This document shows, piece by piece, positions 122 through 22,228 of a stretch of DNA of 22,228 nt. How positions within the stretch are numbered: position 1 is the stretch's first letter; each line of letters opens with the position of its first letter. Below the pieces are notes generated by a model that ran no database searches, was not told where the DNA came from, and was given only the letters and a program-made list of their open reading frames with translations. The stretch spans positions 999,717 through 1,021,944 of the forward strand of contig FN649735.1 in assembly GCA_000310025.1 (NCBI GenBank). The letters run 5' to 3'. This DNA comes from Ectocarpus siliculosus. Its lineage: Eukaryota; Sar; Phaeophyceae; Ectocarpales; Ectocarpaceae. Made by a program: the position numbers and the translations under genes.

Positions 122-3100
122 ATGAAGGACCTAGAGGGCGAACGGCGCACGACTCTTCGTGAGTTCATGCTCTCCGCTAACCATGCGATCGGTGACAACT
201 GGAAGAAGATGTGCACGCTGTCCGGTCCGGCCAACGACGCCGCTAAGGCGGTGGATGCCAGCAGGGGCGCCGTGGATCAGGAGGTCCACTCCCTGGCGGC
301 CGTGCGGATGGAAGAGAAGGTGTTCGTGCTGTCGTCCACGTGTATCTCAATGATTGGTCTATTCGCTTGCGGCGTTTTTGGTGGAAAGTGTTTTGTCTCG
401 CAGTTGGTTGTTTCTCGGGCGTTTCAAATTCTTTTGTGCGTTGGTTGTATTTTTTGCTGGGTTTGGCTGTTTATTCGCGTAGAGGATCTCTAACAACTGT
501 CCCGCAAACGCGACACCCACGACTTTAGAGACGTTGAATAGATGCTGTTACTAAACATGCGTATAACGTCCCTCCAATTTCTCTCTATTTCACGCTCTTG
601 GTGGGATAGCGTAATAGCGTCTACGCTCAAGGCCGTACGTCCTGCCAGACATCGCGTTTGTTTCGCCTCCGTTTGCTTCATAGCCCGTCTTGTCGTCAAC
701 TATTTAACTCCCTGATCGCAGTTTCCTGCGCAACTTGCTTCCTTTGTTCTTCGACCGCTCCCGTGTCCTATCGCTCTACCCCCGTTGCCCCTTGTTGCCT
801 TCTTCCTCAGCAAGTCTGGCAGCAAGCTCCGATTCACACTTTTTCGTCTCACATTGCCCACGTTGTCCTATTTCCTATTCCTGTTACGCCGTGGGATCGC
901 CGTCCATTCGTCGCACCTTCTGCGTTGCACAGAAGCACGACAGCTCTAAGGAACACATCCTGGCGAACACGACCCACATCGTCCGCGCAGACCCGGCTCC
1001 CGCTGACGACTCCTTCATCGAGACTCTGTCGGTAAGGTAGATTTGCCAATCGACCCGTCTTGCGGTCAGTCGGGTGTGGTCGGACGACTCGCTACGGTTT
1101 CTCATGATGGGCGTTTTTTGTGATGTCTTTTTTTGAAGGTGTTTATTTTGTGTATTACAAACGATGACACTGCCGGGATGTGTGAGGGTGTGAGCCGTCC
1201 CTTTATCTCCCGCTTGCATGGATGTGTGTGTGTTTTCGTGCTATTTATTATGGCGGCAGTCTCCCATTTTTCATGGTGCGACATATAAATTCTATTTTTT
1301 TCAGTGTATACACTTTTCAGTGTATGTAGAGTACTACGCTTTTCAGTGTATTTTTCAGGGTACACCTCGGGAAAATTCCCGCCGTTTTTTTCCCGCCGTG
1401 GTGGGCGGTCCCGGTACTGGCGGGAATTACCGCCACATTCGGTGGTACCGGGAACCGCCGAAGGCGGTACCGCCGAAAAACGAAAAACCGCCGACCGCCT
1501 AAAAAGTACCGCCAAAAAACGAAGTACCGGGAACCGCCTAAAAAGAACCGCCATATTGCAGTACCGCCGAAAAAGTACCGCCGTACTGCAGTACCGCCAA
1601 AATGGTACCGCCAAAACACGAAGTACCGGGAACCGCCAAAAGAGAACCGCCATATTGCAGTACCGCCGAATAAATACCGCCGTACTGCAGTACCGCCAAA
1701 ATCGTACCGCCATACTACGGTTTTGCCCTCTAAAGTAGCATAGGGCACTAACTTCAACGCCATGTCTCGCGCAGAACAGTGGTTCGAGTCCAACTGGCGT
1801 GCGTCTTTGTTCACATTTATTCTTTGTTCTTGTTCTCTTTCGTCATACATATATATATATATATTTTTTTTTTGGTTCTGCCTTGTTCCTTTCGGCGGAA
1901 CCTCTTTCATCTGTCGCCGATCGTCAGCTGTTCGAACCAGCGCTTTAAATAGTCGCGAAGCGGCTGTTGCGGGGCCGCCAGGCTCCCGCAATAACAAGCC
2001 GCAGGCGTGTTGCCGGAGGCGATTTTTTTTGGATATTTGCTTGGTTTTGAAAGGAAATTACGTCAAAAATAGTGTTGTTATTTAATAATGGCGAGAAAAA
2101 GGGCCCCAAAAATTTTTTTTAGCCTACGGCGAAATGGACCCCCCCCCAAAAAATATTTCGCCTACGGCGAACGTGTTGCGGGCTAAATTTTTTCGTTGCG
2201 GCAAGCCGCAATATCCATCCAATTGTTGCGCTTCCGCAACTCCGCAACACCTGTTTAAAGCGCTGGTTCGAACACACACATCACACACGCAGCAGTTGCC
2301 CCAGCGCCCAGCAGAGCAATGAGCGCGTTAGAGGGGAATCCCGGTGCTACTAGTAGTGTAGGAGATGGGTCTGCTGCTTTGTCGGTGGCGCGTGCTGCCG
2401 GTGATTCTGTGGACGGGAGCGATTCTGTGGATGTGGAATCGGTGGCTACGAGGGAACTAGAGCTGCAATCCTCAAGCGAGTCTCGCACCATGCATGGTAG
2501 ATGCGGGCCGCGGCCAGTCAATTTGCCATATTTCAGTACCGCCACCAAAAAACCGCCATATTTGGCAGTACCGGGAACCGCCGAAGGCGGTACCGCCATA
2601 TTTCAGTACCGTCAGAAAAATACCGCCGTATTTGGCAGTACCGGGAACCGCCTAAAAAAACCCGCCATATTGACGTACCGCCAAAAAAGTACCGCCATTA
2701 TTGGCAGTACCGGGAACCGCCAAAGGCGGTACCGCCGGAAAACGAAATACCGCCAACCGCGAAAAAAGTACCGCCACATTGACGTACCGCCCCGCCTGGA
2801 TCCGCCTAAAAAACTAGTACCGAGGTGTACCCTGGTATTTTTCGTACAGCCACAACCACCCAGGGCCACACTGGAAGGGGTAAACACCATGTGTGCTCCT
2901 GCGTTTTTTATGTAACGACGTTGTTCTTGCGCCGAGTGTAGAGAGCGTCCCGCTCTGCATGCACGGCCCTCTCTTTCGTCATCTGCACGTGGCACGAAAT
3001 TGACCACGCTGCTCGTTCCTCTGGTTTGTCGAACGCAAGGCGCCTCTGGAGTCGCCCCTGGTGCGGAGCATGATGATGATCGAAAGGAGAGAAGGGAAGG

Positions 3101-6100
3101 CGATCGGCAGCAAGTACCACGCCGGGTAAGTGGATAAATAACAAGCCGCCATTGGCACGCGCTAAGGTCTAGTTTTGTCTTTGTGTAGCATACTACCTGT
3201 GTTGGGTTCGGGAGGAAAACCGGAATATATGATATGTTCGTGGTGAAAAGTTCGTGAATGGACACTATTGGTGAGCGGTTGAGCCGACGCGCATCAATAG
3301 GCAGGTAGGTGGGTGATGGTCTGTTCATCACTAGCACCGGCACGCGGGTTCTCTTTTCCGCTCTCAGCAGCCTAGTATTTGTTTGTTCTCTACGCTGCTT
3401 GAGCGACCGACCGCCTCGGCTGCCATTGCACGTCGTCGTGCCGTTGCAATGCAAGCTGATGGCTCGTTTCGTGTGACCATGCCGTAACCTGTGCGTCAAA
3501 GGGCCCCTCCGTATGCTCTTGTGTTTGGCTTCCGTCTGCCTGCAGTACCTTCTTGGTCAGCGCTCATCGGTAGGGCATAGTTCAGGTTTAGTTTCACTTT
3601 CGTGTGTGATGTGTATGTCGTTCTTGGTGGCATCGACCTACTGTATCCAACGACTTTTTTCGACCATTCTGTGTATTGGGCGACTCTTCTTGCACTGCTG
3701 TGTGCATGTTCCGTGATGCTTTGGACACGGGCAGACTGATGGTGCTGTCGTGGGACGGCTTCCTCCACTTCTTCGACATCCCTTCCTCCTCCACCGTCAA
3801 GAAAGACGCCTCTGCTTCCGCAGCTTTCCAGGAGATTTCCCCCTCCATCTCGGTGAGATTTTTTTCTTGTGGAGTCCCGTGTGTTAATGATGAGACCTTT
3901 TTGGTGCTGGATCTAAATGTCTTTACAAACGGCTCTTCTTTTCAGCAGGTCCGAGGCCGTTGTAGAAAAAAATGTCGCCGAGAGTGACCGGCAGACATTG
4001 AATGACGGCATCCCGCATGCTCTGCCTGCTTCGATGGCGGCGCTTGCCAAGGGTTCCTCTTTTCGTCTTCTGACACTGCTTCGGAATATTATAGAAGCAG
4101 TCCCGATTGCTCGGCGACGTGCCGTGGCGAAACAGAGTCCCTGACAGATACATACCCCCCCCCAGTTTCAAGCACCCAAGCTATTCACCCCTACGAACCT
4201 TCCCACGTCCATTGGCTACCCCCCGGTTCCCCTGCCTTCTAGATATCCACAAATCCGAAATTTGTCCTTCTTACCCTTGACTTGTCGTCGTTGCCCGTTT
4301 GTCCTCCGCGCTGTCCTTGGCGAACTGCCCATGGTATGAACTTCTTGTGATGCCGTCCACGGGCGAATTTTAGCTGGACGACCTCCTGGCGAACAAGAAA
4401 GACCTGGACGAGGTGCTCATGTTCAAGAGCACTCACACGCTCCGGCTGGACGAGTCCTCCACCGTGGAGGCCAAGTCCAGCCACAAGAGCCACAAGATTG
4501 AGGTGCGTGTTGTATGTAGTATGGCTGAAAAGAAGAAGCGCGACAGTAAGTTTTTTTCTACCTCCTGCTGTTGTTCGCGTCGTTGCTGATGTGCGAAGAC
4601 TTGGACATTTTCCCTTCCTGTGGTATTGTCTCATACGGGTAGTCATATCTATGGCTTTGTATCACGCTTGGGGCAATCGCTGCCGTTATCGCACGAGTTT
4701 CTCTACGACCCTTGTTGCTTGTACAATCCACCCTTGACACCTCTTGGTCTACCCCTCATTTTTCTTGAGTTTTTCTGTTTTTTCTGTGTGGTTGACTACC
4801 CCAACTGCTGGTTAACGCCCCCCGCACGCAGGTAAAGGGCAAGATGAATATCACCTCCATTAAGAGGCACTTCGGGTCTAGCAGCAAGACGGTCACCTTC
4901 CGAACGGCCACCGAGGCGGAGATGAACAACACAGTCGAGGAGATCACGGACTGTATCTACACCAGGGGCGGCATGCAGACCGCTTTGGTAAGCAAGCAAT
5001 TTTGTATTTGCGCTTGAGGGATGCTTGCGTTGTTGGTCATGTGCGTGAATGTTGGTGATGCTTTTTGGTGTTGATGTGTGTGTGATGATCTCGGTGATGC
5101 GTGTGTGATGATCTCGGTGATGTGTGTGTGATGATCTCGGTGATGCTTTGTGTGATGATCTCGGTGATGCTTTGTGTGTGATGATCTCGGTGATGCTGTG
5201 TGTGATGATCTCGGTGATATGTGTGTGATGATCTCGGTGATGTTTGTGTGATGATCTCGGTGATGCTGTGTGTGATGATCTCGGTGATGTGTGTGTGATG
5301 ATCTCGGTGATGCTGTGTGTGATGATCTCGGTGGTGCGTGTATGATGGTCTCGGTGATGTGTGTATGGTGCTTGTGATGTTGACGTTTGGTGCGGGTCAT
5401 ACCTTCAGTGTTGTTGGCGGTGATGCCCGTGATGGGTGTGGTGCTTGTGCACTTGAGGTTGGTGTGGGCGAGACGCTTGTGATGCCGGTATTGGGAGTTA
5501 TTTTGATGTCGATGTTTTGATGTTGGTGTTTGTGACTCAGTGATGTTGTTAATGTGTTCGCAGAGGCTGACCTTGTCGTTGTGCTTGATTGTTTGCGTGC
5601 TCCAATATTTAGAGCTGTGTCTGCCTATTCGTGGCCCTGACATCTAGGAACACCTCTTCACACATGCGCCCCATTTCTCTCTCACTACTTTTTTTTTTTT
5701 CCTGGTGTATTTGCACCCGTCCAGACCGGGCGGATGAGCACGGACAGCCGGTCTAGCTTCGGCAGCAGCTTCAACTCCACCGGGTCTGGTTCCACGAAAT
5801 TGGTGAGAGTCCGCCCGCAGTTTTTTTTTTTTGTGTCTTGTCGCCATCTTTGAGCGCACCCGATCGTGACGTACGTGACGGCGGGGCGTCTCGTACCACA
5901 ACGCTGACTTGCTTGAAGTCACCTCACCACACCGTAGACACGTGGCTTAGCCTTGCTAGCACGGACTGTGGAGATTTCGTAGGTGTTTAGTACCTTGAAG
6001 GGGTGGGTGCGATATGGCGGGTATAGCTTTGTTTTTTGGGTGTTGCCAAACGACACCGTTTCTGCGTGGCCGTGTGGATCAATGCCTGCCTTGGTTCGTT

Positions 6101-6873
6101 GGTAGATGTTTTTGCGCTCCGGCGACTGTGCGCCGGAATCAGGAACAGCCTCTCGAGAGAAGAACCCTTTTCTCCAACTGCCGCTTGCTATATCGTCGGC
6201 TCACTTCCAACTAGACCGGGGTTCGGTAGGTAGTCAGGGTCACACTGGTCTCGCGGGAGGAGATGACGTTGCTTGCCATTGCAATGCTGCTCCCTTCACC
6301 CCGATGTGAGGGCAGCGGTCTCAACGCTGTAACCCAGGCTACAAAGAAGGGGTGGTATACCGCCTGCCTCTCTTGGGCTCCCCTCGCAATTTGGTTTTCC
6401 CATCCACTCGACGCGTTGCACACCCCCCACGAGTACGGGATAAAACCGTTTCATCTATCACCGCTGTTGCGCCCCCTAACCCTGCCGTTGCTTGTTGCCA
6501 ACTGCATATGTTCTCCTCTGTGCAGCCGCCCAAAGAACCGGAACCAGCGCCGGCTGCCCCGGCGCCCACTCCGGCCCCCTCGTCAACCGTAGCGCCGCCC
6601 GCCGCCGAACCCGCCGCCGCTGACCCTGCCCCGCCCGTCAAGAAGCCCGCCCACGCCGCCGCCGCCGCCCCCGCCGCAGCCGCTGCCCCCACCGCGACGC
6701 CCACCGCGGAACCGACGAAGAGCCCGGCAGCCGTCCCTGCGGCGGAACCCGCTGCCCCGGCGGCACCGGCCCCGGCGGCGCCAGCGGCGACGACCGGCGC
6801 CGGAGAGGCGTCTTCGGAGGCGCCGCCGCCGCCGGCAGCGGCGGCAGCAGAACCCGTTGCGAAGGCCGTGTGA
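122..6873 (+). CDS. BAR-like and PH-domain protein, 5' end outside the window (8 exons)
   Basis: Proposed exons are 122-319, 933-1031, 3040-3125, 3735-3852, 4374-4502, 4832-4987, 5725-5802 and 6526-6873. Together they give 403 codons in one frame, ending in TGA. All junctions are phase 0 except exon 3 to 4, where GG joins A to make a Gly codon. Residues 1-66 (KDLEGERRTTLREFML onward) and 67-99 look helical and resemble the membrane-curving BAR/F-BAR type. Residues about 115-254 fit a PH domain: the strand LMVLSWDGFLHFFDIP (129-144), a long insertion, then KTVTFRTATEAEMNNTVEEI, the usual last strand and C-terminal helix. Residues 263-288 are Ser/Gly-rich and 289-403 are a Pro/Ala tail with scattered Lys and Glu. 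The family role would be binding phosphoinositide membranes and shaping them, for example in endocytosis. Exon 4 opens at the internal GGGCAG acceptor because only that phase continues the PH strand. The PH call is fairly sure; the BAR call is tentative. The true start lies upstream. Confidence 0.72.
320..932 (+). other. intron 1 of the BAR-PH gene
   Basis: The donor is GTGTTC after AAG, which is weak, and the acceptor is GTTGCACAG. The first part is T/G-rich and the second pyrimidine-rich. I see no repeat or second gene in it. A donor slightly further downstream is possible, but 320 keeps the phase for the next exon. Confidence 0.5.
1298..1355 (+). repeat. TTTTCAGTGTA motif, three copies beside the transposon
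   Basis: The 11-base motif TTTTCAGTGTA occurs at 1298-1308, 1314-1324 and 1340-1350. A fourth, one-base variant (TTTTCAGGGTA, 1352-1362) spans the left end of the hAT-like element. The first copy sits in a palindrome, AGTGTATACACT. Confidence 0.6.
1380..1725 (+). repeat. left subterminal ACCGCC array
   Basis: About 18 exact ACCGCC copies, mostly as GTACCGCC or GAACCGCC, separated by A-rich or ATATTG spacers. A 99-bp higher-order unit occurs twice in tandem (about 1521-1619 and 1620-1718) with few changes. GTACCGGGAACCGCC occurs three times and the 12-bp palindrome GGCGGTACCGCC once. In Ac and other hAT elements, short subterminal motifs bind the transposase; that role here is inferred. Confidence 0.8.
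1930..2273. mobile_element. nested 344-bp element with 20-bp perfect inverted ends
   Basis: GTTCGAACCAGCGCTTTAAA at 1930-1949 is repeated exactly, inverted, at 2254-2273. The interior contains several GTTGCGG/CCGCAAC-type short palindromes and the 12-mer GCCTACGGCGAA twice (near 2122 and 2158). No coding sequence is visible. No clear target duplication flanks the repeats. If the TTCGAA palindrome is itself the duplicated target, the ends would begin at CCAGCGC, but that cannot be separated from the repeat. It is probably a miniature inverted-repeat element inserted in the hAT-like element, or a foldback part of it. Confidence 0.55.
2319..2520 (+). pseudogene. possible truncated transposase start inside the hAT-like element
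   Basis: An ATG at 2319, after GCAGAGCA, opens a frame beginning MSALEGNPGATSSVGDG that stays Ser/Ala/Val-rich and acidic for about 65 residues. It then runs into the right ACCGCC array, where the reading is only a by-product of the repeat. This looks like the disordered start of a transposase left after an internal deletion. No BED finger, DDE residue or hATC dimerisation motif is present, so the identity rests only on position. Confidence 0.25.
2515..2810 (+). repeat. right subterminal ACCGCC array
   Basis: About 13 exact ACCGCC copies plus near copies, in the same orientation as the left array. GTACCGGGAACCGCC again occurs three times, here always preceded by GGCA, and the palindrome GGCGGTACCGCC occurs twice. 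The array ends about 10-20 bp before the right inverted end. Confidence 0.8.
3126..3734 (+). other. intron 3 of the BAR-PH gene
   Basis: The donor is GTAAGT, a strong match. The acceptor GGGCAG at 3734 lies inside a longer open frame that begins at 3676. That upstream frame is not used in my model, because a phase-2 exon 3 joins correctly only at 3735. I see nothing else in the intron. Confidence 0.5.
3853..4373 (+). other. intron 4 of the BAR-PH gene
   Basis: The donor is GTGAGA and the acceptor is AATTTTAG. Apart from a C-run near 4156 I see no repeat or gene. Confidence 0.55.
5077..5361 (+). repeat. minisatellite of about 12 copies in intron 6
   Basis: A unit of 22-25 bp, TGTGTGATGATCTCGGTGATG with small length changes in the TG part, is repeated about twelve times head to tail. 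The last copies are degenerate (GTGGTG, ATGGTC). The copies are close enough for replication slippage. The long minus-strand open frame across it (rich in His, Thr, Ile) is a by-product of the repeat. Confidence 0.9.
5803..6525 (+). other. intron 7 of the BAR-PH gene
   Basis: The donor GTGAGA directly follows exon 7 and the acceptor is CTGTGCAG. The intron begins with a T11 run near 5821. No further repeat or gene is evident. Confidence 0.55.
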
Positions 6874-9016
6874 TCGCGAAGGGTCTTCGTTGCGACAAGC
6901 TTGACGCGACGAGCTAGGATTGGTGTGGTAGGAGATTTTGTTCTGTTTTGAAAATCTCGATTCTCAGGGCGACGCGATGTTAGTGAAAAGCATGCCGTGT
7001 GTGGCGCGTGAGCTCGGGAGGGGGCTACGGCTTGATGTCTGCCCCCTGGGGTGGCCAGGACTTTTTTTTTGTCTGCGACCTTGCGTGGCGTGTTTGTTTG
7101 GCGCGGTTGTGTGTGTGTGTGGTTGTACGAGAGCACCCGAGGAGCGAGCGTCGTTCTGTATCGCCCTTTCTTGTGAAGCGCGATGTTGCGGGAATATTGT
7201 TTTAGTTTTCCCTAGGCGCTAGCAAGCCACGCCGCGCGGGCGTCGGTCGCTCGCACGATTTTCTGCCCATGGCCATGTGTTGCAAGCATCCGCAAATCTC
7301 GTGCAAAGAAACGTTGCACGCAGTATCTCCGAGGCTCCTTGTTCTCGTCGCCTGCCCATTGAAGCATGTGGAAGACTTGCGGTAGTCACATTTTGAGAAA
7401 AACGGCCCCGGCATGCGCGTCGGCACCGGCATCGCCCCTGTTATTGCTCGGCGAGGGGAGGGATGAAGTTCTGATGTTTGACGTACGTACTGTAGTTCTC
7501 TTTCGTAGCAAGGCGAAACGATGGCAAGTCGGGCGGAGTCTTCCGCAGGGCCAGGTATAGAAAGTCAAGGTGGCACACTTGGTCTTGTGGTTTATACCAT
7601 CTGGACTCTGTCGCTGCTCGTCTGCTGTTGCGCATGGGGGCGCGTTTTCTGTGCGGTTGTTGAGTAGTATTTTTTGAAGGTTGTGCGCGGCTTGCTGCCG
7701 ATCTCGGGCTGCATGGTCGATATCGATGCTCGGTCCAACTTCATACATGTCCAACGTTGTGAGTGCTCCTTCGCAAGGTTGTAGACTGGACACATCCATT
7801 TGCCGGCTTTCACAGATAAATCTGTTTGCACGTTTCTTCAGTGTGATGCATACAGTACATCTGGCGTCATCTATCGTACCAAAGTTGTAAGCGGTAGATC
7901 CAATTTGATTTTGAAGTCTTCCTCCTGTAGGTAACCCTTGCGGTTGCAAAGATAAATCGGTGTTTTAGGCCATCGCCAAGTATTGCATGTCTGCAAGTTG
8001 ATTTTGTAGCGATATTTTCGAAGATTAGTAACATAAAGATACGTAATCGCTTTCACACCGTGTCTGGCTGGTGCTTCGCGCTTGGTGTTCCCCGGGACAA
8101 CATGTCCGACGCCACGATACCCACGTTCAGGAGCTTCGCCCTGATGAGATCCACTCCATGGAGCGGTTCAGTTGGTACCCTTGTAGAACATTCGGGCTCT
8201 AGGTTGAGGGTTCCGATCGCTCAGGAGTGAAAGACTGACTCGCGCGCGCATATCAAGCTAAGGCGGCGCGCAGTTGCGTACACACACAGCAGAGGGAAGG
8301 GGCTGCTGAACCCATTCCTCGTTAATTTTGAAGGCAACCACCAGGAGCTGCAAGACGCCCGACTGGCGGCGGCAATTTTGTTCCGAAGACACAGGACGAA
8401 AATATCAATGGGTGAGTGATTTGCGGTCGAAGCGCATCGTGTCAACGGGCGGCTCGTTTTTGTAATCGACGATACTACAATACTCATACAATGTAGTTCA
8501 TTTCTTGAGCGTTCATCATATAGCAGTATGTTCGGGAGCCAGATATCTATTTTGTGACTGCCTTTCGTCGGCTACCCTCATGCTCATAGCATGCGCACTG
8601 CGGAATGACTGCCCGCCGCAAAGAGAGGAGTAGAGAGAGCTAGCATGCAGACGGGCAGAGAGGGGCATGGCGAGCGCCATGGAGCACATGGACGTTCACG
8701 TGCGGGATGTGCACAAAGCAACGGGACCATGCCGACCTTGGAGAAGCGCCTTGAAGAAGCGCCTGCTGTGACACACGAGTCCGACGTTTGGCTGCTGCAT
8801 GGCCCTCGATGCCCGGGCAAAAGAGCGCTGCTGTAATCGACGCAGAATAGCTTTTCTTCTTGCACGGCCGAAGGCCTTACAAGTACAGGGAGCCAAGAGA
8901 GAGCCGGTGTGAAGTCGAAGGTGCTCACTAATGATACTGCTATCTGCGTGTCCCCCTGGTCTCCCACCTAAGCCGCATCGACAGACACACAGCCGACTGC
9001 GCTCTACGCCGTCGCC
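6874..9016. other. 3' flank of the BAR-PH gene and intergenic region
   Basis: The 3' untranslated region should begin here, but I see no certain poly(A) site. A minus-strand frame of 187 codons (7386-7949) contains a Cys-containing stretch (ARCTVCITLKKRANRFIC) and a helical stretch (DIDHAARDRQQAAHNLQKIL). It has no recognised family or supporting exons and may be chance or a degraded gene. A 42-residue plus-strand frame (8102-8230) is equally uncertain. The start of the next gene at 9017 implies a promoter in the last few hundred bases, with no obvious TATA box. Confidence 0.4.
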
Positions 9017-11169
9017 ATGGACACCAATGCCGAGAACGCTGGAGGCGACTCAAGTTCTGGTTGGACCCAAGCTTTTGCTCCCAGGGCCACCCTCCACCCG
9101 GTGCGCATACCTGCTGTTCTTGTTGGAGGGGATGTATGCCTTGTGAATTGGCCAATTTCGAACCGCAGATGGTTGTTGTATCTCAGAGAGGAACACGGGT
9201 ACATAATTGTGCAAGTGAAGGGATGCCTTTCGGCAGTCCAATGAGCCACACACCTATATGTGTGGTATTGCAATTGACCGTCCCAATTCGTCGCGTCCGA
9301 TTGCGTTCATGGCCAGCCGTACCGTAGGAGGTTGCATAAGATATCACACCCCCTGGCCCGATGTTCGAAGCTCGATTACTTGGCAAGAATGGCGGCGTCG
9401 GAACGGCATCGTCGAGAGCTTTCCGGACGAATCTTATGATTCCAGCATCCTCTTCGTCGTGGAGTACTGTAGGGAAGCTTTGAAAATCGTCCCAGGGGGT
9501 GTGGTATCTGATGCAACCTACGGTAGGCAGTGAAGGTACTGCCAGCAGTAGAGCAACCCCATCCGGCCACCCAGGATTCACCATTGCATAGCTCGCGAAC
9601 GGCAAGTTCATAGGTGGATCGATCCAATCATGCCGACAAAAATTCGAAGCCCGCGTGTGATACCACCCAGCTTGTGCTGAAGTCTATCAACCCTCCAGAT
9701 TTCACTCAATCGACGCCGTCTACTGCTGTGTATCTCTCATGGGTCGTCTCCCATCGGATCCCTGCCCCCCACAGCCCCACGAGATTCATGGTGGTACTAG
9801 CCCTAGAGGGCGGTGATGTCTTTTGCCCGGAGTCCCCCTAACTCCTCCTTGTGTGCACCTCCTCAGAGTCGTGCCACCCTTAGGCGGTTAGCCGGGTCAT
9901 TCCTCCTCCGTAAGAGCACAACAATTGCAAAATTCAACAATTTTGTCCATCAATTGTTCCCGGGGCGTGAGGTATACCTCACACATCTGTTCCATATGAC
10001 TATAATCTAACGGAGTGAAGGCCGTGTCGATAGTGGATTGCGTCAAGGGGTTTCTCGGCATTATGAACAGCAGCGATTCTTCTCGTGAATTGTTCAACTA
10101 TCGTCGGTCCATTCACTCACCCGGCTATCCCAGACATCACAACAACACCACCGCCCTCCGCACGGCCTCTCTGTTCGCTATTATTTTCACTCAGACCACA
10201 CCGCTGAGGGGTGCCGTTGGAGACAAGCATCAAGGTCCTCTGTCCCCCTTCGCGCTGTTTTCGGAGGAGAAGGTCCAACTCAGGTGCACAACACCTCGTA
10301 GGGCTTTTACCCACACACGCTGCTGTAGGTGGTTTATTTTGGACATATTCACCCCCTTCCTGTCGACGCCAAAATGCCGCACAACCAACAGGTGCGGTGC
10401 TTGCAGTAGTAGTTCAGCGATAGCGATGAAGGTGCTGTTGCTGCCGTGTACTACTGGCGGCGGCTGCTGCTGCCTAAAACTGTATCGTACCCTTGGGTAA
10501 GAAAAGCAACCAAATTTAAAGCATCTGCCAGTGGTGTGTGGTGTGAATTTCGAGCGCCGCCCGCCGGCTCGGAGCTTCTTTGTCATTTCACTCCGAGTCC
10601 GAGTGGCAGCTTTTGCGCGTTTGTGGTGTTGGTGAAAATGGTGATAAGGAGTACCTTGACCACATATAATGTGAATATTGCTCACAACCAACTACCGATA
10701 TGGAACGCTGGGGCATCACAGCATAGCTATCTGCGTGCTGCCAAAGATGCGAGTTAACGCCTTCACGATTCAGGCCTTCCGCCCCCTAGCAATTACAACA
10801 CACCATTCCCAAACGATCGACCATTGCAATTCCTATCTCAGCAAGCCGTTCACTCTTTTCAACTCCTACTGTTGGATTTTTCGCGCTTCCTTTCGGCTGG
10901 ACTTCTCTCGCCCTCCAACACGACGCCGTGGGATGATGGCACAACAAACCAAAACTAAACTTTGGTATCTACACAGGGCGGCGTCACCAGTTGTATCGTT
11001 CGAAGAGCTCGCCAGGATCTTGGCGGAGGAGTGGGACAGCATGCCTGAGGAGGCCAAGACCCCGTACCGACAGAGGGCTGACGAAGAACACCTTCGACAC
11101 GAGACAATGAGCGCTGCACTAGCCCTTACACAGGTCACCTCCGTTGATGAAAAGCTGCTGCTAAACTGA
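9017..11169 (+). CDS. small HMG-box protein (3 exons)
   Basis: Exons 9017-9100, 10195-10283 and 10977-11169 join in phase (0, then AG plus G making Arg) to give 121 residues and a TGA stop. The HMG box covers residues about 42-100: GPLSPFALFSEEKVQLR, then SFEELARILAEEWDSM, then PYRQRADEEHLRH. These are the three helices with the expected aromatic, Trp (77) and Pro-Tyr (87-88) positions. HMG boxes bind the DNA minor groove and bend it, acting in chromatin architecture or transcription. The start was chosen because GTCGCCATGG is a good initiation context and its exon ends in the right phase before GTGCGC. Exons 2 and 3 are strong; exon 1 is less certain. The first intron (1,094 bp) carries a palindromic element. 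There is little basic or acidic tail, unlike classical HMGB proteins. Confidence 0.7.
9320..9525. repeat. 206-bp palindromic element in the HMG gene intron
   Basis: The left arm (9320-9356) and the right arm (9492-9525) are inverted copies sharing 34 aligned bases with two mismatches, plus three extra bases on the left. Pairing continues more weakly inward (CGATGTTCGAAGCT against CGATTTTCAAAGCTT). Because of it, both strands can be read as GCIRYHTPW in open frames, which is not evidence of coding. No clear target duplication is seen. It is probably a foldback or miniature inverted-repeat element. Confidence 0.65.
10284..10976 (+). other. intron 2 of the small HMG-box gene
   Basis: The donor is GTGCAC and the acceptor is CTACACAG. 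The intron splits the HMG box between helix 1 and helix 2. The piece 10409-10497, ending at a good GTAAGA donor, could be read as a cassette exon, but the box is complete without it. Confidence 0.5.
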
Positions 11170-11670: not shown

Positions 11671-14600
11671 ATGGACAAGAACGACGACTCGGATTCGCAT
11701 TCACTCCTTTCCAAGGTGTTGTCGGCGGAAGAAATCAACATGAATCACCCAATATTAGTATTTCTCCCCTAAACCCGGACATCCCGTCGATCGCTTTTCC
11801 ATCGCCCAGATCGGAACACCGTCTTTCCCTTCTGGCCCTACAACCCCGGTGCTCCCGCCCGGGAAGAAGGCCAGGCGCTGCCTGGATATCGGCACACCCA
11901 ACTGGCAGGTAAAAAGTCGCGGAACGGGAGAGTGTAGTGGGGCAAGGGTGTTTGTTGTTGCTGGCTGCCCTTGCCCAATTTCGGGGTGTAAACGTGATTC
12001 CCTCGGTCTTATTGTTGGTTGTGACCCGGCTTTCCCGTGGTCAGGACTGCGCACTAAAACGTTTTATGACCATTACCAGTAGGTTTGAGTCTAATTCTGC
12101 ACAGTTGAAGGTGTGTCAGTGTTATCGCGAAACATTTTCTAACGCTGAAACGAATTTTTCCTGGGGATGTCGAGTCTTTGGACCCCGGTGATGGAAACCG
12201 GTCGTTGTGAGCGGCATCTGATATCCGCCCCTGCTATCGACACAAACTAATCCTACGTCCTTGACGGCGCACTTTCACTCCTCCACCGGTACGACAACGA
12301 AATCTTCCCTGCCCCTCGGGCTTTCTCGAATCACCGATCTCGCACTGATACATGAAATGGGTGCCGCCCCGGCCGGCCAGTCACCGAGGCTCCCTCCCCA
12401 GGACGTTTGGGACTCCCCTCTCGGCCACGGAGGGTGCGGTTTCGTCCCCAACCTTGCGGGGCTGCCGGCAGCAGACGACCCAGCCGGCCTCCTCTCCGAA
12501 GGCGGCGCCGCGAACAACGGCAACGGGAACGCCACCGCCGCGCCGCCGTCATCCACGGCGACCCCCTCGAGGTTGCCCCCCTGGTCGCCGCCCCCATTCT
12601 CCTTCTCTTCTCCCCCCAAGTCGCTATCGCACAGAAGTTCTGACGTGGTACGCAGACGTGACGACGCCGGAGCGGTCGCCGACGATGCGGCGGCGGAGGA
12701 CCGGCGCACTCGTGCACGCAGTTCCGCGAGTGCCCCGCACTCTGCTGCTGTTGCTCCTGCCGGTGGTGGTGCTGTCGAGGCGACCCCCGAAAACGTTGGC
12801 GATGGCCACAGGAATGCCGGTTGGCCGATGGGCCTGGTCGGACTCACCGTCCACCCAGCGGCGGGGACGGTGGCAGCTGTTGACAAGGATGGAGGTTGCC
12901 AGTCGCCCGAGGTACGCATACGTCCTGTATCGCCACAAGAATATTGAGTAGTCTTCCACAGTGCTTTGGTGAAAGAAGAACCTCGGACCCCCGTTGACGT
13001 AGCCCAGCCACAGGGTCGTTCACCCTCCTCTCGCTCACATTGCGCAAGGAATCGCCGTTGATTTCGTTTGATCCTCGCCCCGTTAGGATCACTGATGCAC
13101 CAACCCTGACAACAACGGCAATCGCATCCTAGGCTAGCCCCTTTTCAAGCTGTTTAGCCTGAACGTGCAAACCCGGTTCCTCGCCGGGTTCGACTACTAA
13201 TTTCCTCTTGCCAAACCTACACTAGTGAGCAGTTGAAGCCCTTGGGACGAGAAGGAAACTACCAAGCATCAACTCCAACTCCGTGCCCCTTCTCAAAGCC
13301 TTAACTACCCTTGTTCTTGCTTCTTTCATCGTAATCTCTAAATTCCCTGCTCGGTTGTCGTATCGCCGGCGGCGTCTCAGACCATCTCGCGGACCGCCCT
13401 CCAAGGAGAAGCATCGAAGAAGAGCGCCGCCGGCGAGAAACGGAAAACCTCTTCCTTGTCGTCGTCTTCCACTTCCGCCGCCGCTGCCGCTTCTCCTTGG
13501 TCGATCTCCAAGAAACTGCTCGAGGAGCGGGCTCGAAAGGCGGAGTACAAGGCTGGGAGGGAGCTGGTGTCCAAGATGTCCAGGAAAGACTCTGCCAGGC
13601 GGGTACAGTTGTAGTACACCGGGGACACGTTGATGCGTTCGTTCCTCAGTGGGGGACACGCAGCGTATCCTAGGTGCATCACGCGCGTGCGTCAAAAGAG
13701 TTGTCGTGCACAGCGTATTGCTCGTTTGCACCGTTGCTCCACCGTAACCGGTGTAGGGTAATCATAGGTGGAGTAGACGTGCAATGTGGTAGGTGGGTTT
13801 GATCAGCCGAAGAGGGGGATCGTGGCGTGCACCATTTATTCAGTCCCTCACTCCCCCCCGCCCTTCCTTGGTAGGCCTTTTCTGTCGAGAAACGTTTAAC
13901 CTTGCCGGGTGCGATAGCCGATTTCGAGGAAGTAATGTGCTTCACCCTGCGTCTGTGCGTACTCGAAAAAGGGTACCTTGGTGATGGATAGCCGACGGTG
14001 CTTCTGTTTTCAGCGCTAATGCATGTCCGAAGGCACAGGTTCCAAAATCTCCTACCCCGCTGCCGCCTCTATGGTCATGGGCACACCCTACCGCATGTTC
14101 TTACATGGTTTTCGTCCCATCCGTGTGCCCACCTTGATTCACCCATGCAGGCCAAAGGGTCCTCAAAGTTCTTATATCGTGTTCTACACAGAGAAGATGG
14201 CTTCGTTCAAGGCGGCTAGGCCCGGCATGAGCATTACGGTGATGTTTCCCTGCTGATTCATACCTCTATTTCTTCTACCGCTTAACGCGTAATTCTCTCT
14301 TCCGTTTTTATCGTGGCGAAGACTTGAGAGCGCCGCGTAAACCTTCGCTCTGTGTGAGGCGAGTGTTCTACCGACGACTCAGAAGAAGTGGGTAGAAAAC
14401 AGTAAGAAGGATGTTTTCCGTGGCCGCCACGCCCGCTACTTTACATTCACTCGGAGGAGGCCGACCGGTGATGGCCTCAAAATGGTGCAACAGTTTCCTC
14501 TGTCCTATTCGTTTCATTGTCGCTGTAACTTGGGTGGGAAAACGCCAACGCTCCTGCCTTACAGACCAGTGGTACCGCTTGTTGTGTCGCTTCTGGTACG

Positions 14601-14873
14601 ATTTGCGGTCGCGAGGCATTGAAGTAGATCAACTTGTTGTCTTCGTTGATGCCCGCTGCACAGGATATCGCAACAGCGGTCGGCGAGGCCTGGCGCAGGC
14701 TGTCCGATGAGATGAAGCTTCCCTACACGAAGAAGGCCGAGGCCGATCGCAAGCGCTACGAGGACCAGCTGCGTGCCATCGCACGTAGCGCCGCTACCTC
14801 CGCCGCCACGACAACGACCGGCGCCGCCCCCACTGCCACCATCGCCCCTACCTCGTTCCTTCGCAATGTCTGA
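11671..14873 (+). CDS. HMG-box protein with long disordered N-terminal region (6 exons)
   Basis: Exons 11671-11715, 11810-11908, 12402-12911, 13381-13610, 14151-14238 and 14664-14873 give 393 residues and TGA. Junctions are phase 0, except that TT of exon 4 joins G of exon 5 as Leu. The apparent TAG at 13612 is therefore part of a GTAGTA donor. Residues 16-48 (IGTPSFPSGPTTPVLPPGKK onward) and 49-218 are Pro/Ala/Gly/Ser-rich and likely disordered. Residues 219-295 carry basic patches (KKSAAGEKRK) suiting nuclear import, then a charged helix (KKLLEERARKAEYKAGREL). The HMG box is about 296-364: PKGPQSSYIVFYTEK, GMSIT, DIATAVGEAWRRLSDEMK, LPYTKKAEADRKRYED. An Ala/Thr tail follows. DNA bending in chromatin or transcription is the family role. 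Exon 1 is the least certain: it may run to 11757, with a 52-nt intron. Exons 5 and 6 are secure. Confidence 0.68.
11909..12401 (+). other. intron 2 of the second HMG-box gene
   Basis: The donor is GTAAAA after CAG and the acceptor is CTCCCCAG. An alternative acceptor, GGCCAG at 12380, would add seven residues (SPRLPPQ) in the same frame. No repeat is seen. Confidence 0.5.
12912..13380 (+). other. intron 3 of the second HMG-box gene
   Basis: The donor is GTACGC after GAG and the acceptor is GCGTCTCAG. Nothing else is evident. Confidence 0.5.
13611..14150 (+). other. intron 4 of the second HMG-box gene
   Basis: The donor is GTAGTA and the acceptor is TTCACCCATGCAG. An open stretch at about 13876-13970, behind a very good acceptor (CCTTCCTTGGTAG), could be an alternative exon, but its codon choice is unlike that of the neighbouring exons. 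Confidence 0.45.
14239..14663 (+). other. intron 5 of the second HMG-box gene
   Basis: The donor is GTGATG after ACG and the acceptor is CCCGCTGCACAG. It splits the HMG box just before helix 2. I see nothing else in it. Confidence 0.6.
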
Positions 14874-19810: not shown

Positions 19811-19999
19811 GTCACCGCCGGAGGTTGCACTTCTCCGTACACAGAAAAATTGTGGCTGAAGAGGTCCACGCCGTGATGCGGAAGGTCCTTGCGCATGCCG
19901 AACGAGAGGAGGCGGTCGAGACGAGGAAGGCGAGAGCTTGGAGCGACGCCGGAAACAGAGGGCGTGCAGTCTACAGAACAAGGAAGTTCTGCCACACAA
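19811..19999 (+). pseudogene. copy A: decayed gene fragment, plus strand
   Basis: It reads IVAEEVHAVMRKVLAHAERE and continues charged and helical to KARA, where a one-base deletion relative to copy B shifts the frame. A second length change lies upstream, near 19840-19850. It is an inverted duplicate of copy B at 20014-20213, facing it tail to tail with about 14 bp between them. The family is unknown. Confidence 0.5.
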
Positions 20000-20013
20000 G
20001 CATCAAATTATGT

Positions 20014-20290
20014 TAATGTGGCAAAACGTCCTTGTTATGTAGACTGCGCGTCCTTCGCGGCCTGTTTCTGTCGTCGCTCCAATGCTCTCGCATTCCTTGT
20101 CTGAACCACCTGTTGGCGTTCGGCATGCGCTAGCAGCTTCCACATCACGGTGTGGACCTCTTCAGCCACACCTTTACTGTGCACAGAAGTGCAACAGAAC
20201 GGCGGTGGTGGTGTGCTAGCATTTGCTTGATCAGGGGCGCCTGTTCCACTAGGAGTAGCGGCGGTGCTAGCTGCTACTGCTGGAGATTTA
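20014..20290 (-). CDS. copy B: 3' exon of an unknown gene, minus strand
   Basis: On the minus strand a frame with no ATG near its start reads from about 20290 down to a TAA at 20033-20035. It has a Ser/Thr/Ala/Pro stretch (PSGTGAPDQANASTPPPP), then VAEEVHTVMWKLLAHAERQQ, then a basic Gln-rich helix ending KQAAKDAQST. Codons remain open where copy A has frame breaks, so this is the better preserved copy. It would be a C-terminal exon; an acceptor such as CTCCAG or AGCAG lies near its start. A minus-strand frame at 20342-20602 could be an upstream part of the same gene. Such Ala/Pro-then-coiled tails occur in many repeat-family proteins; I cannot name this one. Confidence 0.4.
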
Positions 20291-20462: not shown

Positions 20463-22228
20463 TCGGGGGCCTCGTGACCGATAAACGTTGGGCACGCGTA
20501 GCGATTGTCTTGCGCGTGCAACTGTTGACGCACATTCCAACGGGAAACGACATTGTACAGCAGTTTGGTTAAACTCAATTCGTGGGGTCGATTTCTTGAC
20601 AAACCCCCGCTGTCGTGTCCGGATATATAGTTGCGGGAGAAACACCGGGATCAACAGTTATTCTGCGTGCGTCCGAGCAAAAAGAGAAATTACCAACTCC
20701 AAGCAATAGGCTTACGAACACTACAATTGCCCAACTCCAACAACAGGCTGCGCGCCCGACATTCCAGTATCTGTGATGGACAGCAGATTTTTACCATCTC
20801 AACATGGAACCTATCTAAAGAGTTGCCAATGGATTCTCCCGAGGTCTCCCCAGATCTCCCGAGATCTCCCGATCACTCAGGACTCATCCCATTGGCTGTT
20901 TATGCAAGCCAAAGAGATGCTGCCACGAGATACAGCATGAAGCACACTTCCACCTACATCATACATCAAGTTAGACCGCGCGTCACACACTTAAGAGCGG
21001 CGTACAGCAGCCCTCGAGGGTACAAGAGATACAGGGATGCGCTCTCGACGGACGATAACTGTCAACCGAAAGGGAGACAAACACAGCCGCTGTCAGGGCG
21101 ACACCTACTCCGTGTTCGAACGGCAAGGAAGCCCCAACTCCAACAACAGGCTGCGCGCCCTATGTCAAAGTGTATGTGTTGACAGCGAGCAGGTTGTTCT
21201 GTGTTAGTATCAGCAGTATCTGTTCAAAGGGGCTTCGCACTTTTACTCAGACTGAAAAATGTGTTGATGCGGGGACCGATTGGTGGGTCGCAGACCAGGA
21301 CAAAAAAACAACAGCAGTTGCTGGTCCACGTACGTCAAGAAATCATCTGTCCCCATCATTTCAAAGCGGTTGAAGAGTTCTTCCGTTGGTAGTATTTCGT
21401 TGGGTCGGTACTGTACGTTTCTCTCTATCCTACGTTCGCCGGGTGGTTGTGCAAGAAATAGGGCGGGCGCGTTAGACTCGCCTCCGCTCTGTTATCAAGG
21501 ACGACCACAAACTGACAACATCGAAAACATCAACATGACACGACTTACTAACTGTGATATTTTACCGCGAAAGTGGCATGTCTTTTCGCCAAGGATAGAA
21601 CACGGCAAACCGCTGATCTGTTGTTTGCTGATGATGATGACGATGCTCCAAAGATCGCAGGATGTCCTGCAGTGCTGCTGTGGTGCTGTAGCGGGCCGCT
21701 CGGTATTGCTTCCATTCTCGCTGTTTGGCCCGCTTCTTGCAACCATTTTCGCTACAATGTAACGCAAAACCAGGCACGATCGGTTGGTTTCCCACTCGGT
21801 GAAGTCAGTACACGTCCTTCACGGAAACCCAAGTCAGTTTTCTAGTTAACTTTCATCTTCCTTGACTCTTCGGCTCCCACCCCAAACGAAAAACGATTTT
21901 GAAGAAGAGATTTATCTCCGAACGATGTGGATAAAACACTCAAACGCCATCATTTTCCCCACAGCGTTTTGTTTACATTCTGTCGAAACCCTATGAAACA
22001 GCGTTTGTGGCGGTGCGACAAATAAAACTAAAGACACGGTGAAATAATGAGCCAGATTGGCGGACGCTATGGATCCCACCATTTCAACACGAACGAAGCA
22101 CTCATCCTGCGAAGTCGGATGCCCCTTCTTTGACTTAGGTGGCAAGCGTAGCCGGACAGCACCGAGCCCCGAAAGGCCAGCTCGATTGCGTAGTGCACTG
22201 ATACCGCGGCCGGGGGAGGGGGGGGTGG
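20463..22228. other. right end, repeats but no supported gene
   Basis: It contains four imperfect tandem 10-mers of the TCTCCCGAGA type (about 20834-20873) and the 28-bp direct repeat listed separately. The open frames at 20631-21182 and 21280-21762 show no recognisable domain. The window ends in a G-rich tract. Confidence 0.4.
20730..21160 (+). repeat. 28-bp perfect direct repeat, 403 bp apart
   Basis: An identical 28-base sequence (beginning CCCAACTCCAACAACAGG) lies at 20730-20757 and 21133-21160. A shorter shared string, CAGTATCTGT, follows each copy at different distances (near 20768 and 21211). The enclosed 375 bp has no recognised gene. It could be the footprint of an insertion or a decayed tandem duplication. 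Confidence 0.7.

Follow-up and report, generated by a model that had tools for sequence, protein, structure and literature searches.

What kind of element occupies the apparent intron at one end of a 22,228-bp stretch of Ectocarpus siliculosus DNA (contig FN649735.1; the whole stretch analysed here, hereafter the window), and how might it be moved? Two copies of one 8-bp sequence enclose a segment of 1,479 bp (1356-2834, the outer element) whose two ends are inverted repeats of each other. There is good support for reading this segment as a non-autonomous cut-and-paste transposon whose anatomy resembles that of hAT elements. Judging from its sequence, it is probably a non-autonomous DNA transposon of the hAT superfamily, the most likely assignment, which entered an apparently intronic stretch with an 8-bp stagger. 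Two further questions are taken up below, namely how the dense motif arrays near its ends might function in transposition, and whether its interior holds a second element.

Ends, target site and host gene

Read from left to right, the locus runs GTATTTTT, CAGGGTACACCTCGG, the interior, CCGAGGTGTACCCTG and GTATTTTT again, and occupies 1348-2842 when both duplications are included (Table 1). A first-pass annotation of this DNA had reported exact 15-bp inverted ends starting with CAGGG and an exact 8-bp duplication at the flanks, and both were recovered in full, with 15 of 15 positions matching in the ends and all eight in the duplication. A C stands next after each copy of GTATTTTT, which would allow a 9-bp duplication with lopsided ends; the symmetrical reading is 8 bp. 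Immediately to the left, a 17-bp repeat is present three times at 1293-1351 and ends in TTTCAGTGTAT, reaching into the left copy of the duplication. The same annotation took the locus for a single complete element, which is borne out by the outer ends and duplication but not by the interior, where a second element had apparently been overlooked. It also called the insertion recent. Such a date is possible: none of the 23 base pairs that can be compared differs, which places divergence below 12.2% at the 95% level, and with so few base pairs the exact ends bound the age loosely.

Table 1. Coordinates of the outer element, the nested element and their parts, as positions in the window
Feature	Position	Strand	Remarks
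Outer left target-site duplication GTATTTTT	1348..1355	.	same 8 bases as 2835-2842
Outer left terminal inverted repeat CAGGGTACACCTCGG	1356..1370	+	15/15 complementary to 2820-2834
Left subterminal array	1402..1715	+	exact ACCGCC 18 on +, 2 on -; spacings mostly 14, 16, 25
12-bp perfect palindrome GGCGGTACCGCC	1463..1474, also 2586-2597 and 2725-2736	.	three copies, all within the arrays
Nested left target-site duplication GTTCGAAC, palindromic	1930..1937	.	same as 2266-2273
Nested element (apparent), 328 bp, ends CAGCGCTTTAAATAG / CTGTTTAAAGCGCTG	1938..2265	.	inverted ends 14/15
Nested right target-site duplication GTTCGAAC	2266..2273	.	8/8 vs 1930-1937
Non-repetitive core right of nested element	2274..2524	+	holds ATG at 2319, 68 codons to array
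Right subterminal array	2525..2812	+	exact ACCGCC 13 on +, 2 on -; same strand as left
Outer right terminal inverted repeat CCGAGGTGTACCCTG	2820..2834	-	complement of 1356-1370
Outer right target-site duplication GTATTTTT	2835..2842	.	8/8 vs 1348-1355

The outer element apparently sits in an intron of a eukaryotic gene, since it lies between two stretches that read as coding exons, one ending near 1031 and the next starting near 3040. The window appears to start inside this host gene. The gene had been labelled BAR-PH, a name that found no backing: the joined exons matched no Pfam family, and no PDB entry up to E 10. For the annotation of the host gene, the insertion is an otherwise ordinary transposon in an apparent intron, with unusually dense one-way arrays at its ends, and it should be masked beforehand. 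A minisatellite of period 23 with about 12 copies (5072-5364) lies, by eye, in an intron of the same gene. Farther to the right, two coding stretches match the HMG box (PF00505), at 10980-11168 (E 9e-8) and 14150-14830 (E 1e-16); the second is apparently split by an intron and was joined by eye for the Pfam search. The long G, T and C runs at 1-90 and the G-rich run at 22208-22228 are probably artefacts of sequencing or assembly.

Coding content, relatives and superfamily

A transposase domain would settle the classification of such an element directly. Altogether 25 stop-free stretches of at least 45 amino acids overlap the outer element, and all were scanned against Pfam except one that overlaps it by 21 bp. 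The 24 scanned stretches held no transposase-type domain at the Pfam cut-off. Neither a BED finger, an RNase H-like DDE core nor hATC was detected in them at that cut-off, as expected for a non-autonomous copy, and the same holds for the KDZ transposase domain (PF18758), which a non-autonomous copy need not carry. Seven matches below the cut-off (DUF4666, TMEM119, TcpF, RecJ_C, Glyc_hyd_38C_2, DUF5429 and DUF5488; E 0.0096 to 0.39) were attributed to chance in translations of low complexity.

The first-pass annotation had pointed to a possible transposase start of perhaps 65 codons. As evidence of a transposase it did not hold up: the 68-codon reading frame has no Pfam family and is as open as chance predicts. 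Two of the six frames are open across the core, but 36% of 2000 simulated sequences have at least one fully open frame, and 46% of 2000 random stretches taken from the right of the element hold an open run as long as that of the core. A remnant in two exons (ATG at 1762, GT at 1799, AG ending at 2292), whose frame is open by eye, fared no better, its joined 95 amino acids having no Pfam match up to E 10. Two other origins of the interior were considered and rejected. GGTTCGA motifs raised the idea of a tRNA or other RNA; the window yielded neither a tRNA nor, at the gathering score, any Rfam family. Capture of a gene from the window was set aside as well, the interior beyond the arrays and the nested arms matching nothing else there at E 1e-3.

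Copies and relatives were sought in viral, phage and prokaryotic collections. In IMG/VR, the end 15-mer matched 25 stretches, an array 15-mer 48 and the nested-end pattern 78, with one match in each stretch, and a 19-base array pattern was present in 2 GTDB contigs. When the element, its parts and its flanks (91-1347 and 2843-6900) were compared by BLAST with all 153 of these IMG/VR and GTDB loci, no second copy appeared and nothing longer than 34 bp aligned; these collections are viral and prokaryotic and are not expected to contain the host, so this null result says nothing on copy number in the host. The best-scoring locus (L075), where an Ascidiaceihabitans contig ends, aligns over 32 bp at 94% and has the look of coding DNA from a bacterium when read by eye; two others (L112 and L074) look unrelated. 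IMG/VR protein searches with the two host exons and with the supposed transposase remnant gave no relative, and the phage records gave no match. Among the literature matches to CAGGGTACACC there was no transposon paper, as judged by title and the start of the abstract, and a search of the literature by topic brought up no recognised description of this element, as judged from the listings.

The classification is thus a matter of anatomy. Short CAG..CTG inverted ends are typical of hAT elements, and they are present both here, at 15 of 15 positions, and in the nested element, at 14 of 15. Each of the two also has an 8-bp duplication, GTATTTTT for the outer element and GTTCGAAC for the nested one, the latter palindromic and hence ambiguous. 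A repeated subterminal motif is found at both ends, with 20 exact copies of ACCGCC on the left, 15 on the right and none in the core. Because of these three features together, hAT is the best filing for the outer element on anatomy alone. The earlier description as a non-autonomous hAT-like element therefore stands as to autonomy and anatomy, and reaches only that far with respect to actual hAT membership.

Published hAT elements provide further points of comparison. The usual duplication of the superfamily is 8 bp (PMC12730594). In one table of PMC4298943, most of the hAT Buster entries have CAGGG ends, and Buster1_NA, Buster2_NA and similar elements resemble the outer element in their short size as well; the same source describes a tandem subterminal motif for one of them, Buster1, as is seen here. 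Beyond CAGGG, the end sequences differ. Repbase practice asks that the first 11 bases differ at no more than one position from those of an already classified hAT element whose duplication is equally long (PMC4455052), and by eye the first 11 bases of the outer element have at least four mismatches to the Buster ends given in PMC4298943, which puts them outside the rule as far as these Busters go; the motif here is ACCGCC. The target preference reported for Hermes, nTnnnnAn (PMC10368747), fits GTTCGAAC but not GTATTTTT, which has a T at position 7, with one site available for each element.

Could the outer element instead be a non-autonomous member of another superfamily whose duplications measure 8 bp, with KDZ (Zisupton/Dileera) and P as the foremost candidates? 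Zisupton and Dileera make duplications of the length found here (PMC12730594), as do the P elements of Anopheles and their short derivatives (PMC1562414). Moreover, a census in Ectocarpus, itself a brown alga, counted 128 copies of hAT in 4 families, a low number, and 6403 copies of the common KDZ in 8 families, so that KDZ exceeds hAT by about fifty to one in copy number there (PMC12477816), and no domain that might decide the matter reached its cut-off in the 24 scanned stretches. The length of the ends points the other way. The inverted repeats of three Cryptococcus KDZ elements, which make duplications of 8 bp, or 4-8 bp, are 139-241 bp long (PMC12810828), and those of the Anopheles P elements measure 27-31 bp (PMC1562414), against 15 bp here; the outer element thus shares the 8-bp duplication of P but not its repeat length. 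For KDZ this measure is not decisive, since Kyakuja, with a 7-bp duplication and CA..TG ends, has no inverted repeats (PMC12730594), and long inverted repeats therefore do not define KDZ. The CAGGG end, in turn, is one listed for hAT (PMC4298943). On this evidence we consider membership of KDZ or P unlikely, and continue with hAT as the probable assignment.

Polar arrays and a proposed mode of movement

The motif ACCGCC is strongly concentrated near the two ends. Counting exact copies on both strands, 35 fall within the 669 bp of the arrays, none in the core and nested element, and 21 in the other 20.7 kb; the total of 56 in the window compares with 13.5 expected, and none of 100 shuffles reached it. 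In the arrays, 31 exact copies are on the forward strand and 4 on the reverse strand (binomial p 3.5e-6), a p value that overstates the bias because the copies are not independent, having arisen partly by tandem duplication. When one mismatch is allowed, the forward and reverse counts are 20 and 4 on the left, 18 and 5 on the right, and 4 and 5 in the interval 1741-2520, so that both the confinement and the strand bias are less strict than the exact counts suggest.

Spacings between copies of ACCGCC are mostly 14, 16, 25 and 30 bp, and the left array contains a 99-bp unit twice in tandem, the two units being 92% identical. The arrays resemble each other in direct rather than inverted orientation, with identity of up to 86% over 90 bp (2687-2776 against 1425-1514). 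The left end folds back on itself modestly (z -2.65, with 2 of 100 shuffles as good).

How might the arrays take part in transposition? By analogy with known hAT systems, a transposase supplied by another copy would use an N-terminal DNA-binding domain to hold on to the ACCGCC arrays, cut at the CAG..CTG ends and re-insert the element with an 8-bp stagger. For hAT transposases, an N-terminal BED finger is predicted and binding to short subterminal motifs has been described (PMC10368747, PMC3143072). With both arrays pointing in one direction along a single strand, the two tips would have opposite polarity: read inward from each tip, the left end would present ACCGCC and the right end GGCGGT, and the ends could be told apart. 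Perhaps the element represents an undescribed family in which strictly polar ACCGCC arrays, in direct orientation, let the transposase distinguish the left end from the right, only the outer 15 bp being inverted. We put this forward tentatively, as a possible reading that is more doubtful than probable.

The best parallels come from Hermes and Herves. Reports on Hermes describe asymmetry of its ends as an important requirement; constructs with two left ends showed little movement and those with two right ends none (PMC10368747). Hermes also resembles the outer element in its many short subterminal sites, 17 on the left and 14 on the right, and its STR2-7 are reported as antisense on the left and its STR1-5 as sense on the right (PMC10368747), a pattern that may resemble the polarity of the arrays here. 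The Herves transposase binds a motif found at each end of the element, and it does not act on both inverted repeats in the same manner (PMC3143072). The motifs themselves, AAG(T/C) and CG/AATTCAT for Hermes and Herves, differ from ACCGCC. Two observations on Hermes speak against a role for polarity: movement did not return when the first three subterminal sites (within the first 50 bp) were made asymmetric again, and in the structure reported no BED domains were seen on the right-end sites (PMC10368747). Should the polarity of the arrays have a function, the element would offer a natural experiment on the way in which hAT-type transposases distinguish the two ends. If a polar-array family does exist, end asymmetry of the Hermes type would be visible in the sequence as polarity on a single strand.

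A nested element, and inverted pairs in the window

Within the outer element, the segment 1938-2265 appears to be a second transposon-like element that inserted into the first. Its inverted ends read CAGCGCTTTAAA(T/C)AG. As a single strand, the 328 bp fold back strongly (z -7.0, with none of 100 shuffles as good). The motif CCGCAA/TTGCGG occurs 7 times in it, compared with 16 times in the 20.7 kb outside the outer element, and exact ACCGCC does not occur at all. Its ends and internal motif differ from those of the outer element, so that a different transposase was probably responsible for its movement. The nested element may have inserted at this copy, or may have travelled along with a moving outer copy. 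The nested pair provides two 8-bp empty sites potentially visible in other strains.

Since GTTCGAAC is its own reverse complement, a duplication and an inverted repeat look the same in this copy taken alone. The interval 1929-2274 might thus be a single longer inverted repeat of the outer element, a hairpin for example, with arms of 23-24 nt (24 bp, 23 of 24 matching) and no nested element at all; the palindrome equally allows a shorter duplication, TTCGAA or TCGA. With the single long repeat, the arms are flanked by AGC and CAC, so that no duplication lies outside them, whereas an 8-bp duplication yields CAG..CTG ends of the same form as those of the outer element. The interior, moreover, has a motif of its own and no exact ACCGCC. 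On these grounds, we regard a single repeat as quite improbable and prefer to read GTTCGAAC as the target-site duplication of a nested element.

How often would such pairs arise by chance? Inverted arms by themselves are unconvincing, since 100 first-order Markov windows included 6 whose longest pair, with no duplication required, measured 15 or 16 bp, and the window carries a longer pair elsewhere, of 21 bp. With the criterion set at inverted arms of 9 or more exact bases, no more than 3 kb apart and flanked by the same 8 bases, a scan of the whole window found two pairs only, namely 1356-2834 (15 exact) and 1938-2265 (12 exact, 14 of 15 in all). The same criterion gave 3 matches in 200 simulated first-order Markov windows, and 2 in 600 other simulated windows, where the arms measured 10 and 9 bp. 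Simulated windows do yield 15-bp inverted pairs within 3 kb, but those 600 gave none as strong once the flanking 8-bp repeat was included, and the ACCGCC arrays end short of both termini, so that a chance pairing of the outer ends and their 8-bp repeat has next to no probability.

Other inverted repeats are present farther along the window. A 372-bp imperfect palindrome at 19824-20195, 79% identical to its own reverse complement and with an inner pair at 19966-20047, looks like another fold-back element; no target duplication longer than 4 bp was found. At 9320-9525, inverted arms of about 50 bp (83% identical) surround a 200-bp stretch and end in TACCGTAGG; this is apparently one more short inverted-repeat element, and it has no clear duplication. 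Finally, an exact direct repeat of 28 bp occurs at 20730-20757 and 21133-21160, the two copies being about 400 bp apart.
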